Assembly (NCBI GenBank): GCA_017634675.1 | Contig: JAGBMX010000020.1 | Coordinates: 1 to 49,269 of the forward strand | Reading direction: 5' to 3' | Length of the DNA stretch: 49,269 nt | Origin: Selenomonadaceae bacterium | Lineage (GTDB): Bacteria > Bacillota > Negativicutes > Selenomonadales > Selenomonadaceae | Part shown: piece by piece, positions 3,446 to 49,269 of the stretch | How the letters are laid out: each line of letters begins with the position of its first letter | How positions within the stretch are numbered: the first letter of the stretch is position 1 | The notes under the pieces: model-generated | Database searches by the model: none | Seen by the model: only the letters and a program-made list of their open reading frames with translations | Told to the model about the DNA's origin: nothing | Program-made: the position numbers and the translations under genes

Positions 3446-3530
3446 GTTCTTTCTTTTCTTTCTTCTCTTTTTTTGTAAAAAAAGAGAAGAAAGAAAAGAA
3501 ACAAAAGAAAGAAGAGAAAAAAACTTTAAT
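3446..3530 (-). repeat. Triplex-type Y1-Y2-R element, copy A
   Basis: Read on the minus strand: ATTAAAG, pyrimidine tract Y1, spacer GTTTC, mirror tract Y2, a short TAC turn, purine tract R, then GAAC. Y1 is an exact mirror of the distal part of Y2. Y1 matches R in parallel at 21 of 21 positions. It starts 7 bases after the glutamine synthetase stop codon and faces copy B head to head. Confidence 0.8.
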
Positions 3531-3582
3531 AAGGGGTTTAGTGAAAATTTAAAATTTGAGTAAAAACTTGAAATCCGAGTTT

Positions 3583-3676
3583 GTTAAAGTTTTTTCTCTC
3601 TCTCTTTTTCTTTGCTTCTTTCTTTTTCTCTCTCTCTTTTTTACAAAAAAGAGAGAGAGAAAAAGAAAGAAGGAAC
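3583..3676 (+). repeat. Triplex-type Y1-Y2-R element, copy B
   Basis: GTTAAAG, Y1 (3590-3613), spacer beginning GCTTC, Y2 to 3642, AC turn, R from 3645, ending AAGGAAC. Y2/R form an uninterrupted 28-bp hairpin stem. Y1 matches R in parallel at 24 of 24 positions, including seven C/G. It ends 24 bases before the dapL start. There is no T run after the hairpin on either strand, so it is not a standard terminator. Confidence 0.85.
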
Positions 3677-3700: not shown

Positions 3701-4927
3701 ATGGCAAAAATAAATGAGAATTATTTGAAGCTGCCGGGGAGTTATCTTTTTTCGGAGATAGCTAAGAGAGTGGCGGCTTATAAGGAGGAGAATCCCGAGG
3801 CTGAAGTTATCAGTTTGGGGATAGGGGACGTTACGAGACCGTTGCCGAAAGTTTGCGTTGAGGCTATGACTCAGGCGGCGGATGAGATGGGGAATGTTAA
3901 GACATTTCGAGGTTACGGGCCTGAACAGGGTTATGATTTCTTGAGAGAAGTTATAGCGGAGCATAATTATAAAGCAAAGGGAATAGATATAAAGGCGGAA
4001 GAAATTTTCGTCAGCGACGGATCTAAGAGCGATTGCGGCAATATACAGGAGATTTTTAGCAAGGATTCAAAGGTTGCGTTGCCGGATCCCGTTTATCCCG
4101 TGTACCTTGATACGAACGTGATGGCGGGACGCACCGGGGCGCTTATGGGCGACGGGTATTTTGAAGGGGTGGAGTACCTTTCGGCAACGGAAAAGAATAA
4201 TTTTTCGCCGGATTTGCCGAGTGAAAAGATGGATTTAATCTATCTCTGTTCTCCGAATAATCCCACGGGTACGGCGCTATCGAGGGCAGCGCTTACAAAA
4301 TGGGTGGAATATGCAAGGGAAAACGACGCCGTTATCTTGTTTGACGCAGCGTATGCGGCTTATATTACGTCCGATGATGTGCCTAGGTCTGTTTATGAAA
4401 TACCCGGAGCAAAGGACGTTGCGATAGAGTTTCGTTCTTTTTCCAAAACGGCGGGTTTTACGGGTACAAGGTGCGGTTATGCCGTAATTCCGAAAAATCT
4501 TATGGGAACGGCTTCGGACGGAACAAAAGTTTCGCTTGCAAAGCTGTGGAATCGCCGACAAACCACAAAATTCAACGGCACGGCTTATATCGTGCAACGG
4601 GCGGCGGCGGCTGTTTATACCGAAGAAGGGCAAAAGCAGGTAAAGGAAAATATTGACTACTATATGGAAAACGCTCGCATTATAAGAGAAGGTTTGAAAA
4701 AAACCGGACTAAAAGCTTACGGAGGCGTTGACGCGCCTTATATTTGGGTGAAAACCGCAGAACCCTCGTGGGAATTTTTCGATAAACTTCTCACCAAGGC
4801 TCAGGTGGTAGGCACACCCGGCGCAGGTTTCGGACCGTGCGGCGAAAATTATTTTCGCTTGACGGCGTTTGGAGACCGTCAAAAAACTATCGAAGCTATA
4901 CGTCGCATTGTGTACAAACTGCATTAG
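3701..4927 (+). CDS. dapL: LL-diaminopimelate aminotransferase
   Basis: DapL is a PLP enzyme that makes LL-2,6-diaminopimelate from tetrahydrodipicolinate and glutamate in one step, feeding lysine and peptidoglycan synthesis. The 408-residue protein starts [14 protein letters not shown] and contains [31 protein letters not shown] and the PLP-lysine motif [15 protein letters not shown], all characteristic of the DapL branch of class I aminotransferases. The ATG at 3701 follows AAAAAGGA. Upstream lies triplex-type element B with no clear promoter between, so expression may come from further upstream or from a promoter I could not see. It uses glutamate, the product of the synthase encoded downstream. 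Confidence 0.93.
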
Positions 4928-4998: not shown

Positions 4999-5090
4999 AT
5001 TAAAGTTTTTTCTTTATCTTTTTTCTTTGTTACTTTCTTTTTTCTCTTTCTTTTTTACAAAAAAGAAAGAGAAAAAAGAAAGTAAGAAAC
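4999..5090 (+). repeat. Triplex-type Y1-Y2-R element, copy C
   Basis: ATTAAAG, Y1 (5006-5028), spacer GTTAC, Y2, AC turn, R from 5059, ending GAAAGTAAGAAAC. Y2/R pair over 27 bp without mismatch. Y1 matches R in parallel at 22 of 23 positions. The TTAC/GTAA pair here replaces TTC/GAA of other copies, a compensatory change. It lies between the dapL terminator and the promoter of the ANTAR gene. Confidence 0.83.
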
Positions 5091-12274: not shown

Positions 12275-14443
12275 ATGGATATAAATAACTGCTATCAAAA
12301 ATTATGTTTCATGGAAAACATAGCATCACAATATGTTTATGGTAGGAATTCTGCGGATATTTTGCGAAAAATGCGCGAAGATATCTTTGATAAAGTTTAT
12401 CGAGTTGCTTTTATAGGGGAATTTAATCGCGGAAAATCCAGTTTAATTAATGCTCTGTTGGGTTCAGATGTTTTGCCTATGGACATTTTGCCCAGTACCG
12501 CCACTGTTATCCGCATGATTTACGGAAATGAGAGAAAGATTCATCTGTATTATACGGATGGAAGCGAAGCTGAAATTGAAAACCCGGAAAAATTACAGAA
12601 AGTCGCAACTAAACGGGACGATATTAGCGAACAAATCGCTGCAACCATTAGGGAGATAGTCATAGAATATCCTTCCCAACTATGCAGAGAAAATATTCAG
12701 ATTCTAGATACTCCGGGGTTAAACGAAAACACAAATATGACGGAAATCACAAAAAAAGTGCTTAAAGATATAGACGCCGCCGTTATCGTAGTTTCGGTCG
12801 AATTACTTTTAAGTCAGACGGAACGTGATTTAATTTTGGATATGATTGCGGAGGACGGAATTCGTCATCTGATTTTTGCCGTAACTTTTATTGATACGTT
12901 AGATGGTGAAACTGAAAAAGATCAAATGATATCCTTTATTGCCAAACAATTACGTGAAAATACATTAGAAGATGCAAAACGACGTTTTGCGGGGAAAGAT
13001 GTTTTGATAGAAAAAGCCGAAAAATTGTTAAGTTCTCCAAGTGTTTTTGGCGTTTCGGCGTTAGAGGCAAGACGCGCTTTTCAAAAGGGCGATAGGAATC
13101 TCTTAGAACGCTCGCGACTGCCGAAATTTAAAGAAAATCTTCTCGCTTTTTTGACAAGCTCTCAAACGGCGGATTTACCGATAAAAACACTCAAATATTT
13201 AGAGTGGATGATAGAGGAACTTCCCAAGTGGCACAAAGAGGAAAAACAAATTCTTAAAGAAAGCCTGAGAACAAAAGCAACTGATAAACGACTAAACGTT
13301 TTTAGCGAAAGCGAGCTAAAAAACAACGTAGATTCGGCTCTTAAAATATTTGACCAATTATTGACCTTGAGTTTGGGACTGACTCAAAAATATGTCAATA
13401 TTTTCTGCAAAACACACATACTAAATTCGTATTTGTCGCATATCGGAGAAGTAAACGCTACGGATCATTTGGACTTTAAAATATCTAACGCAATGCAAAA
13501 AGCGGAGAAAGAGTTCTTAGATGAAATCAATCAAAAAAGAGATGTTTGGGAAAAGACGTTGCGCCGATATATGAACAATGTGGAAATAGGCTTTCAAGAT
13601 TGTCGTCAAGCGGCTAAGCTTGATACTAAATCTCTTGCCGATAAGCTTCTTACTTTTCATGAGAAAAACAGCTTGCCGATGTTTTCATGGAAACAAGATC
13701 CAACGCCGCCCAAAGGCTGTGACGACCACTTGTCACATATATACGCCGCAATTAACTCATCTACGGATTATTTTTGGGAAAATATAAAAAATTGTATAGA
13801 AAATTGGAAAGAAGAACTAAATACTCAACTTGGAGAAGATACAAAAAAAATACGCTCAAGAAATTCCAAAGATTTAAACTCTAAATTGGAGGCTTTACCG
13901 TTCCTTTATAAACAACAACTAGGAACTCTTTGGGCCATACAAGACGAGCTTGATCCCAATGCTTACAAACAAAGAAAAACGGATATTCAAGATGAGTATG
14001 AAGAAGATATTCCCCAAAAAATCACTAGAATCATAAGTGAATTGCAAGGTGAATATGGCAGTCTTCCCAATATTTTTTTCAGGAATGGAACAGATAGGTC
14101 AAGGAATAAAATAATGGGTGCTATCAAAGGCTATGCGAACGACGTGAAATATGACGACGTGATTTTTTGCTATGACGATACGTTCTTTGGTTCAAGCGAC
14201 AACGGATTTTTGATGACTTGCGAAAAACTTTGCAGCATGAATTATTTAGAATCTTCAAAATCTATACCGTTAACGGATATCGAAACCATAGATCCCGCGG
14301 AGAATAAATTTAACACACTCTTCATTAACGCTTCAAGCGATAAAAACATTTATATAAATGTGTCTAGTTATGCCGGCAACAAAAATACCTGTGACAAGTT
14401 AATAGAACTTATGTTCACGGTAATTGGAGAATTTGCCATATAA
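12275..14443 (+). CDS. Dynamin-like GTPase 1
   Basis: A 722-residue bacterial dynamin-like protein. The GTPase domain is N-terminal: P-loop GEFNRGKSS (48-56), switch I threonine in LPSTATV (about 72-78), DTPGL (145-149). The G4 position reads TFID (204-207) rather than N/TKxD, keeping the Asp but not the Asn/Lys, so nucleotide specificity may be altered. The remainder is long, charged and mostly helical, without an obvious membrane paddle. Dynamin-family proteins couple GTP hydrolysis to membrane binding or remodelling and in bacteria often occur as adjacent pairs that act together (for example LeoA with LeoBC). It is the first of three such genes here. The RBS is weak (GGTGAAG). Function in this organism is unknown. 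Confidence 0.8.
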   Translation: MDINNCYQKLCFMENIASQYVYGRNSADILRKMREDIFDKVYRVAFIGEFNRGKSSLINALLGSDVLPMDILPSTATVIRMIYGNERKIHLYYTDGSEAEIENPEKLQKVATKRDDISEQIAATIREIVIEYPSQLCRENIQILDTPGLNENTNMTEITKKVLKDIDAAVIVVSVELLLSQTERDLILDMIAEDGIRHLIFAVTFIDTLDGETEKDQMISFIAKQLRENTLEDAKRRFAGKDVLIEKAEKLLSSPSVFGVSALEARRAFQKGDRNLLERSRLPKFKENLLAFLTSSQTADLPIKTLKYLEWMIEELPKWHKEEKQILKESLRTKATDKRLNVFSESELKNNVDSALKIFDQLLTLSLGLTQKYVNIFCKTHILNSYLSHIGEVNATDHLDFKISNAMQKAEKEFLDEINQKRDVWEKTLRRYMNNVEIGFQDCRQAAKLDTKSLADKLLTFHEKNSLPMFSWKQDPTPPKGCDDHLSHIYAAINSSTDYFWENIKNCIENWKEELNTQLGEDTKKIRSRNSKDLNSKLEALPFLYKQQLGTLWAIQDELDPNAYKQRKTDIQDEYEEDIPQKITRIISELQGEYGSLPNIFFRNGTDRSRNKIMGAIKGYANDVKYDDVIFCYDDTFFGSSDNGFLMTCEKLCSMNYLESSKSIPLTDIETIDPAENKFNTLFINASSDKNIYINVSSYAGNKNTCDKLIELMFTVIGEFAI

Positions 14444-21496: not shown

Positions 21497-21660
21497 GTTA
21501 AAGTTTTTTCTTTCTCTTTCTCTTTTCTTTGCTTCTTTCTTTTCTCTTTCTCTTAGCTTCGCTTTGCTACGCATACAAGATTCGCTAAGTGCTAAAGCAC
21601 TAAGCGAATCTTGTATCTTTTTTTCAAAAAAGAAGGAGAAAGAGAAAAGAAAGAAGGAAC
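21497..21660 (+). repeat. Triplex-type Y1-Y2-R element, copy D, with inserted hairpin
   Basis: GTTAAAG, Y1 (21504-21530), spacer GCTTC, Y2 (broken off near 21553), a 70-base insertion, then R from 21626 to AAGGAAC at 21660. Y1 still matches R in parallel at 26 of 27 positions. The insertion includes a 20-bp hairpin (21573-21592 with 21597-21616, one mismatch, loop TAAA). It lies between convergent genes. Confidence 0.8.
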
Positions 21661-26004: not shown

Positions 26005-26054
26005 GGTTCTTGTTGAGGATAAAACAAATTCCGCTTTTTTATCCTTTACTCGTT

Positions 26055-26110
26055 AAAATGCCTTAATTCAAGTTTCTTTCCGCCGGAAGAAAACTTGAAT
26101 TAAGGCGTTT
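26055..26110 (-). terminator. Terminator of the tolC-to-ttcA run
   Basis: A 16-bp stem (GCCTTAATTCAAGTTT with AAACTTGAATTAAGGC) around a GC-rich loop, with T/A runs on both sides, right after the ttcA stop. Confidence 0.82.
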
Positions 26111-26886
26111 TATCTGTTCATATATCTAAAATAATCTGCTTTCATCTCGGTCCGCTTCTTTTCCTTAGGCCAAAGTTCGCCTACGGCGGTTGCTCTCATG
26201 GCGCTTTTTAGGTGATCGTAAAAATCCGGAATTTCATCTCCCAGCTTTACAATTATTTCTTTTACCTTTTGCCTTTTCGTATTGCCGTCGTAGGGGCAAA
26301 GAGACGGCGTCGGCAGGCAACCGTGAAGTTTTAAGGTTTCTTTGATTTCGTCTTCTCTGAAATAGACAAGCGGCCTGATAACCGTAACATCCGTTCTGTC
26401 AAGGTAAGTAACGGGGGAAAATGTTGTAAGTTGCCCGGAATAGATAAGGCTCATGAAAAAAGTTTCAACCGCATCGTCGTTATGATGAGCATACGCTACC
26501 TTATTCATGTTGTTTTCCTTCGCCAAACGGTTTATCGCGCCTCTTCGAAAATAGGAACAGGTAAAGCAGGGCGAACCGCCGGAATTTTCAACTGCGCTTT
26601 TAATGTCTATAGCCGCGCTTTGGAACGGAACGTCCAATTTTTTGCAGAATTCTTCCATATTTTTTGACGAAAAATCTGCTTTAAACATAGGGTTGATATT
26701 AAGCGCCATAACGGAAAATTTTACGGCCAGTTTTTCCTGCAAAAACTTTAAGGCGTACAGTAAAAAGAGACTGTCTTTCCCGCCGGAGAGTCCGACTAAA
26801 ATTCTGTCTCCTTCGTCTATCATGCGAAATTCCGTTACGGCTCGCATAAGTTTGCTAAAATAAAGCTTTGGTAAATATATTTTCAT
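26110..26886 (-). CDS. ttcA: TtcA-family tRNA thiolation PP-loop ATPase
   Basis: TtcA-type enzymes adenylate and thiolate a tRNA base (2-thiocytidine 32 in E. coli). The 258-residue protein has the PP-loop SGGKDS (34-39), the paired cysteines CFTC (107-110) and a further Cys197, the set that binds the Fe-S cluster in this family, plus AHHNDDAVET after the central fold. Length agrees with the short TtcA branch. The homologous TtuA/Ncs6 enzymes are possible, but they usually carry extra zinc-finger cysteines that are absent here. It is the last gene of a run with rarA, 6 bases away, so it probably depends on upstream promoters. Confidence 0.85.
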   Translation of the reverse strand: MKIYLPKLYFSKLMRAVTEFRMIDEGDRILVGLSGGKDSLFLLYALKFLQEKLAVKFSVMALNINPMFKADFSSKNMEEFCKKLDVPFQSAAIDIKSAVENSGGSPCFTCSYFRRGAINRLAKENNMNKVAYAHHNDDAVETFFMSLIYSGQLTTFSPVTYLDRTDVTVIRPLVYFREDEIKETLKLHGCLPTPSLCPYDGNTKRQKVKEIIVKLGDEIPDFYDHLKSAMRATAVGELWPKEKKRTEMKADYFRYMNR

Positions 26887-36101: not shown

Positions 36102-36193
36102 GATAAAGTTTTTTCTTTTCTCTTTTTCTTTGTTACTTTCTTTTTCTCTTTCCTTTTTTACAAAAAAGAAAGGAGAAAAAGAAAGTAAAGAAC
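36102..36193 (+). repeat. Triplex-type Y1-Y2-R element, copy E
   Basis: GATAAAG, Y1 (36109-36131), spacer GTTAC, Y2, AC turn, R, ending GAAAGTAAAGAAC. Y1 matches R in parallel at 22 of 23 positions; Y2/R pair with two imperfections. It carries the same compensatory TTAC/GTAA pair as copy C. It lies 26 bases before the polygalacturonase start with no promoter visible between, so it is probably in the transcribed leader. Confidence 0.8.
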
Positions 36194-39103: not shown

Positions 39104-39200
39104 ATTAAAGTTTTTTCTCTCTCTTTCTTTTCTTTGCTTCTTTCTTTTCTTTCTCTCTCTTTTTTACAAAAAAGAGTGAGAAAGAAAAGAAAGAAGGAAT
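39104..39200 (+). repeat. Triplex-type Y1-Y2-R element, copy F
   Basis: ATTAAAG, Y1 (39111-39135), spacer GCTTC, Y2, AC turn, R, ending AAGGAAT. Y1 is an exact mirror of Y2; it matches R in parallel at 24 of 25 positions (one T in R breaks both pairings at the same place). It ends 20 bases before the aminotransferase start. Confidence 0.83.
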
Positions 39201-49058: not shown

Positions 49059-49219
49059 GTTACTATTCACGGGTAGTACAAAAAGAAAAAACGGTGCTCT
49101 TCATGGTCAACCCCTCTGCCCTTCGGGCACCTCCCCTTTCAGGGGAGGCTCTCTGATTTCTCATTTTGTGGATATATAATAGAAAAGTCACCTTCACGTT
49201 GCCTCCCATGAAAGGGGAG
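49059..49219 (-). repeat. Intergenic palindromic repeat, right copy (inverted relative to 1-161)
   Basis: Reverse complement of 1-161 with about 8 mismatches. It begins with the TTACTATTCACG boundary right after the YgjP gene and continues beyond the matched part into GGGGGACCGCGAAGCGGTGG. An open frame of 65 codons on the minus strand is only the repeat itself. Confidence 0.85.
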
Positions 49220-49269
49220 GGGGACCGCGAAGCGGTGGAGAGGTCATCTGTGAACGGCACTAATTCGCC

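Follow-up and report, generated by a model that had tools for sequence, protein, structure and literature searches.

Bacterial repeats of the intrastrand-triplex type have already been described as PIT elements/BoxC and ordered into a scheme of classes I-IV (PMC4666352). The PIT/BoxC survey searched stems of 6-15 nt, and this 2015 paper makes no mention of covariation, compensatory change or Selenomonas (PMC4666352). For BoxC/TMECO no triplex was seen by in vivo footprinting, which counts against triplexes in cells; the in vivo formation and relevance of DNA triple helices is an old open question, with negative in vivo tests for BoxC, the best-known bacterial case. Among RNAs, the MALAT1 triplex is mentioned in PMC4689454. 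The repeat reported here resembles PIT/BoxC/TMECO (Hoyne 2000, 2002; Holder 2015) in being dispersed and intergenic, in having three tracts on one strand that could fold into an intrastrand triplex, in a copy number that differs between close relatives and in local insertion/deletion differences. It is also similar to the REP/BIME/REPIN units (Bertels and Rainey 2011, PMC3116915), which are high-copy extragenic hairpins with non-autonomous-mobile behaviour, occurring as inverted doublets with a short linker, the doublets being better conserved. The initial annotation knew of no described bacterial repeat of this form; intrastrand-triplex repeats as such are known, so this holds only for a long, covarying family of the pyrimidine motif. 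No published description of the triplex repeat was found in the open-access literature, subscription papers lying outside the search.

The window, i.e. the whole stretch of 49,269 nucleotides that was analysed, is one contig from the genome of a Selenomonadaceae bacterium of the rumen and contains six copies of a high-copy, intergenic unit of ~85-105 bp. On its pyrimidine strand, the unit is composed of an AAAG box, a pyrimidine tract (Y1), a GNNNC turn, a second pyrimidine tract (Y2), a 2-nt loop, a purine tract (R) and GNNN(G)AAC. The copy under study, copy B (3586-3676, plus strand; 24/24 triplets perfect), has its AAAG box at 3586-3589, Y1 at 3590-3613, the turn GCTTC at 3614-3618, Y2 at 3619-3642, the loop AC at 3643-3644, R at 3645-3668 and GAAGGAAC at 3669-3676; the next ORF, for LL-diaminopimelate aminotransferase, starts at 3701. 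It forms an inverted pair with copy A (3446-3527, minus strand; 21/21 Y1/R triplets perfect), in which the minus-strand reading gives the AAAG box at 3524-3527, Y1 at 3503-3523, the turn GTTTC at 3498-3502, Y2 at 3477-3497, the loop AC at 3475-3476, R at 3454-3474 and GAAAGAAC at 3446-3453. The two AAAG boxes are separated by a linker of 58 nt (3528-3585), whose inner flanks are of the TTATTAAAG type on the A side and of the GTTTGTTAAAG type on the B side.

The other four copies are found on the plus strand. Copy C (5002-5090) has its box at 5002-5005, Y1 at 5006-5028, the turn GTTAC, Y2 at 5034-5056, the loop AC and R at 5059-5081, with 22/23 Y1/R matches and one A in Y1. Copy E (36105-36192; 22/23) has the same turn and loop, with the box at 36105-36108, Y1 at 36109-36131, Y2 at 36137-36159 and R at 36162-36184, and its orthologue in a sister species (L072) is itself perfect. 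In copy F (39107-39199; 24/25, one T in R), the box lies at 39107-39110, Y1 at 39111-39135, Y2 at 39141-39165 and R at 39168-39192, with the turn GCTTC and the loop AC. Copy D (21500-21660; 26/27) consists of the box at 21500-21503, Y1 at 21504-21530, the turn GCTTC at 21531-21535, Y2 from 21536, the loop TC at 21624-21625, R at 21626-21652 and GAAGGAAC at 21653-21660, and its Y2 is split by a hairpin repeat of ~64 nt at about 21553-21616. This hairpin repeat, ATACAAGATTCGCTAAGTGCT/AGCACTAAGCGAATCTTGTAT, was also observed inside the Y2 of a triplex copy at L115 (near 12814-12875), and the triplex elements may be targets of another small mobile element of this kind. All six copies were recovered with the match counts first assigned to them.

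The same layout, as proposed from the window, is seen genome-wide. The box, AAAG or AAAA, is preceded by TTATT or GTTTGT, the loop is AC, TC or AT, and R is followed by the complement of the turn bases NNNC and then mostly by GAAC(T). Tracts are 17-28 nt long and ~80% T; despite this variation in length, 139 of ~154 copies of the genome itself have a turn of exactly 5 nt and a loop of 2 nt. The turn bases NNNC pair and covary with those after R (TTAC/GTAA, CTTC/GAAG, CTAC/GTAG, TTTC/GAAA and GTTC/GAAC), so that the Watson-Crick stem is 4 bp longer than the triplex. The order of Hoogsteen pyrimidine, Watson-Crick pyrimidine and purine tract, with T.A-T and C.G-C triplets, agrees with class IV, as do the sizes (turn 5, loop 2 and stem 17-28 nt, where the class takes loops of 1-6 nt, a stem of at least 6 nt and at most one mismatch). 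The BoxC/TMECO consensus, CCCTCNCCC-N3-6-GGGNGAGGG-N3-GGGNGAGGG, does not fit these tracts, which are T-rich and almost without CC. That the repeat and its geometry are real is practically certain. We also noticed a subfamily in which GTAAGGTTTTT or GAACGGTTTT takes the place of GAACT at the 3' end and whose tract is often the short TTCTTTTTCTTTCTTTT (e.g. L018 5670, L028 16338 and L133 12393); it may be a second lineage that has separate termini.

A pattern of AAAG box, T6 and A6 gave ~200 copies in the genome itself, and ~90 and 102 in those of the other two species of the genus, the MAGs RGIG6591 (sheep) and RGIG9201 (water deer), while a control pattern had zero matches. These counts are based on ~0.96 Mb of the genome itself and on pattern counts, and the three genomes of the genus are draft MAGs, 85-91% complete. 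Among the other 186 genomes of the family, real copies were identified with this pattern in only one, from another genus, which has at least one further intact copy and some decayed ones. A pattern of geometry alone (Y-turn-Y-loop-R, without the box) was run over 380 genomes of the class, and its matches came exclusively from the three belonging to this genus. Matches in Chitinophagales, Clostridiales and one other Selenomonadaceae contig were put down to chance, and a phage origin was rejected, as none of 19 pattern matches in viral contigs had the three-way match. The final set comprises 262 distinct copies, nearly all from the three species of one rumen Selenomonadaceae genus.

All three tracts are perfect in 217 of these 262 copies, which represent 53 different C/T orders (tract types); since the copies are related by descent, the independent triple changes are fewer than the tract types. 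When each of the 54 distinct R tracts is represented by a single copy, Y1 and its own R agree at 10.46 of the 12 positions that lie beyond the invariant T6. Swapping R between copies lowers this value to 7.40 (sd 0.20, maximum of 2000 swaps 8.20), and shuffling Y1 in its C/T order lowers it to 6.73 (sd 0.19); the agreement is well outside chance. This test used stretches of the genome itself and of the two sister species (G001 and G002), and Y1 was placed by the AAAG box, not by match. The comparison with shuffled orders over many copies had been set beforehand as the one that might refute the proposal, which came through it (10.46 vs 6.73), and the first impression that the C/T order differs between copies yet agrees within each was borne out. 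Moreover, of the 50 tract types in the first set, 40 differ from some other type by a single C/T change or a single indel (25 substitution and 27 indel links), indicating that single changes have passed through all three tracts.

Could the hairpin alone account for these tracts? In such a scenario only Y2/R would matter, as a cruciform, mRNA hairpin or terminator, and the likeness of Y1 would come from low complexity or few founders; the tracts are of low complexity, and several types are abundant, the two commonest with 33 and 29 copies. However, the swap control already takes one copy per R type (10.46 vs 7.40), and Y1 is no alternative pairing partner, as its identity to Y2 in the antiparallel sense is only 0.66. 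Taken as a direct repeat of Y2, Y1 fits poorly (11.3/18). An attenuator-type switch was likewise rejected, because Y1 is unable to substitute for Y2 as the partner of R. A hairpin alone also predicts that private changes pile up in Y1, but odd-one-out mismatches number 32 in Y2, 15 in Y1 and 8 in R, the least changed tract being the one that is a partner in both pairings, and Y1 follows R at least as closely as Y2. The common GAAC form, furthermore, has no U-run after the hairpin. Covariation is also seen between the base preceding Y1 and the base preceding R (G-C 213, A-T 15 and A-C 2; Fisher p = 1e-21; in a larger set G-C 226 and A-T 21), and in the larger set the A-T cap is spread over 12 tract types, of which 6 are found with G-C as well. 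In a hairpin these two bases are separated by the whole stem, and no covariation is predicted, whereas they are adjacent if Y1 runs parallel on R. We regard this cap as the cleanest independent support for a triplex; the hairpin by itself is extremely improbable and is, at the level of sequence, effectively ruled out.

The composition of the tracts is also in line with a triplex of the pyrimidine motif. Adjacent Cs are avoided, CC dinucleotides being observed twice where 30.4 are expected (sd 4.1). Adjacent C+.G-C triplets repel one another, so that this avoidance is in keeping with the pyrimidine motif and opposite to what is seen in BoxC, whose purine motif is G-rich. On the other hand, C+.G-C triplets require protonation, which counts against the proposed structure. 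Read on the opposite strand, the element (Y-R-R') would have a purine motif rich in A, and since the stability of purine motifs depends on G-G-C triplets (PMC4666352), the Y1-Y2-R strand is likely to be the acting one. Another proposal assigns the function to double-stranded H-DNA and takes R, although on the same strand, as incidental; the homopyrimidine Y1/Y2 mirror repeat with its 5-nt spacer has the form that this requires. But H-DNA does not require R, and R is the best conserved tract, nor does it agree with the covariation of the loop base with the box; we consider it improbable.

Comparison with the sister species suggests that the three tracts change together. At 14 clear orthologous sites between the genome itself and G001, hand-picked from a lax automatic matching with many false pairs and with aligned flanks of at least 195 nt, the flanks have diverged by about 9% on average (~91% identical) and the tract type has changed at 8 of the 14, but only 8 of ~630 triplets disagree, against a rough estimate of ~85 if neutral. 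Single-step tract differences at these sites may be changes in place, and for the large ones the simplest explanation is that whole elements were replaced by recombining with other copies, because the incoming tract types are common elsewhere. Ordinary DNA copying and repair never write mirror order, and Y1 has no templating relation to Y2 or R; selection for the triplex is then the simplest cause. Taken together, the mirror tracking, the tracking at orthologous sites, the cap covariation and the CC avoidance support the initial annotation in its claim that a pyrimidine-motif triplex explains all three tracts, and on this comparative evidence natural selection for the fold is very probable.

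Presence and absence of the repeat also differ between the species, i.e. insertion polymorphism of the MITE type occurs at orthologous sites. At more distant pairs, for instance, insertions absent in the sister species at the same gene pair leave intergenic lengths of 257 nt in the genome itself vs -4, 227 vs 19 and 123 vs 10, and the reverse is seen in 54 nt vs 245 and 20 vs 252. No target-site duplication is evident in inverted pairs or at empty sites, where the identity is only ~75%.

With respect to genes, as placed by simple ORF calling, the GAAC end faces and abuts one in most copies, with a median of 24 nt upstream of the start when co-oriented and 8 nt after the stop when opposed. This fixed short distance of the 3' end could reflect a host function. 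Such a function at gene edges, as a boundary, supercoil sink or replication/transcription roadblock kept by site-wise purifying selection, is the main rival to a mobile element, and it is in agreement with the abutting GAAC ends and with orthologous copies that remain perfect while their flanks diverged about 9%. Presence at the same gene pair, however, often differs between species, the high copy number is confined to one genus of the class, and tract replacement suggests copy exchange rather than conservation in place alone. We consider a host-beneficial DNA element unlikely.

The orientation of the copies bears on whether they act as RNA. Transcripts of Y1-Y2-R might form a U.A-U/C+.G-C triple helix immediately upstream of the start codon or at a 3' end and affect mRNA stability or translation; sense-oriented singles do end a constant ~24 nt before the start codon, and the order of Hoogsteen pyrimidine, Watson-Crick pyrimidine and purine is the same as in RNA triple helices of the ENE/MALAT1 type. 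Pyrimidine-type intrastrand triplexes do form in RNA (PMC4666352). However, among the 92 co-directional singles 33 run antisense to the preceding gene, and the perfect fraction is not lower against transcription (0.86) than with it (0.78; paired copies 0.86-1.0), although an antisense transcript would read Y-R-R', and RNA is unable to form this purine motif (PMC4666352). Rfam covariance models had zero matches in the window. The RNA triple helix, which the initial annotation had left as an option, is consequently not favoured, and an RNA element seems quite unlikely.

Inverted doublets are over-represented, as in REPINs: we found 29 inverted pairs, all in the same arrangement (-,+) with linkers of 29-65 nt, and 49 of 54 copies in doublets are perfect, compared with 83 of 106 singles. 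A promoter in the linker was considered and rejected for want of a consistent -35 spacing. In 30 further single copies, the 5' partner at ~63 nt is the GC-rich repeat CTGGACTYC. This motif, with 77 copies in 0.96 Mb, belongs to a GC-rich multi-hairpin repeat, GGGGCTTCGCCCC...CTCTGGACTCCCG (e.g. L013 16257-16635 and L113 7202-7413), which is found alone, in inverted pairs or beside triplex units at an almost constant distance of ~63 nt, as would be seen with modular repeat ends. Two other repeats were observed in the window. The family CCTCCCCTTTCAGGGGAGGC, whose inverted arms are separated by 51 nt, lies at 1-89 and 49130-49220, i.e. at both contig ends; its core occurs 111 times in 0.96 Mb with both strands counted, and the assembly probably broke at these repeats. 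A 29-nt near-perfect inverted repeat with a 1-nt loop, TAAAATGCCTTAATTCAAGTTTCTTTCCG, is located at 26054-26112 between two minus-strand genes, and a stretch resembling it, TAAAATGCCTTAATTCAAGTTTTTTCTTCGCC, is present in L109.

The element is, in our reading of these comparisons, rather more probably than otherwise a REPIN-like, mobile intergenic unit whose single strand would fold into a class IV intrastrand triplex, and its functional part would be the shape rather than the sequence. In single-stranded DNA, Y2 and R would pair by Watson-Crick bonds, and Y1 would bend back at the 5-nt turn to lie in the major groove alongside R and parallel to it, the T.A-T and C+.G-C triplets making up the class IV intrastrand triplex; at the top of the helix, the base before Y1 would form a closing G-C or A-T contact with the second base of the loop. 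Every copy may be selected to fold if folding copies are recognised by structure, and an enzyme or a repair/recombination route most likely spreads and exchanges copies through a single-stranded stage, much as RAYTs would spread REPINs. Recognition of the fold would explain why the tracts vary freely with the three strands still matched and why perfection is independent of the direction of transcription, and spread or exchange between copies would explain the replacement of whole tracts at fixed sites. For such structure-read mobility as the cause of the selection, the case is nearly balanced; still more tentatively, the element would be mobile or copy-exchanging, with an enzyme that reads the three-stranded fold regardless of C/T order, and would be the first family with covariation across three strands.

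Spread in the manner of REPINs is our first choice of route, since doublets are better conserved than singles, as in PMC3116915. Several mobilisers were rejected, and none was left as a candidate. RAYT/IS200-type mobilisation was dropped because Pfam Y1_Tnp (PF01797) was detected in 0 of the 3 genus genomes (drafts, 85-91% complete). Tn7 prefers Y-R-Y triplex targets in vitro (PMC2886061), but only one weak TnsA-like match was found, in one genome, and the distribution of reverse transcriptases is patchy. An autonomous long element with triplex ends is not indicated, as the candidate intervals checked contain ordinary host genes. Separately, contig C51 of the genome itself (G000; loci L221 and L224) carries a reverse transcriptase at ~42.8 kb and a match to a TnsA-like endonuclease at ~5.5 kb, perhaps as mobile-element cargo.

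Evolution has in effect repeated the compensatory-mutation experiment dozens of times on three tracts, and the copies provide what seems to be strong sequence evidence for selection maintaining a triple helix in living bacteria. If true, this would be the first natural family with Watson-Crick plus Hoogsteen covariation and would be evidence of triplexes in living bacteria; the family offers natural variants ready for direct tests, with natural one-strand mutants as controls, and suggests that the host has an as yet undescribed activity that reads structure.

Compared with known systems, the tract length, the cap pair, the covariation and a pyrimidine motif whose Cs stand isolated are new. BoxC has a class II purine motif of 9 nt, rich in G/C and in G runs, with one near-fixed consensus (PMC4666352), whereas the triplex repeat has tracts of 17-28 nt, a class IV pyrimidine motif and 53 covarying sequences in a different taxon. 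REPINs differ in the tag next to the hairpin, GTAG or CGTC, where the triplex repeat has AAAG or AAAA, and the latter belongs to a genus without the RAYT/Y1 transposase, would form a triplex rather than a simple hairpin and has a stem of freely variable sequence. Transposons using single-stranded DNA of the lagging strand show an orientation bias, whereas none is seen here against GC skew (52/100), which counts against the proposed mobility. Like MITEs, the triplex repeat is short, multicopy, without an ORF, gained and lost between species and with inverted ends when paired, but only the fold is conserved at its ends, singles are common and no clear target-site duplication was seen. ENE/MALAT1 structures, finally, are short, unique RNA structures that clamp an A-rich 3' end, while the triplex repeat is present as hundreds of DNA copies in both orientations.
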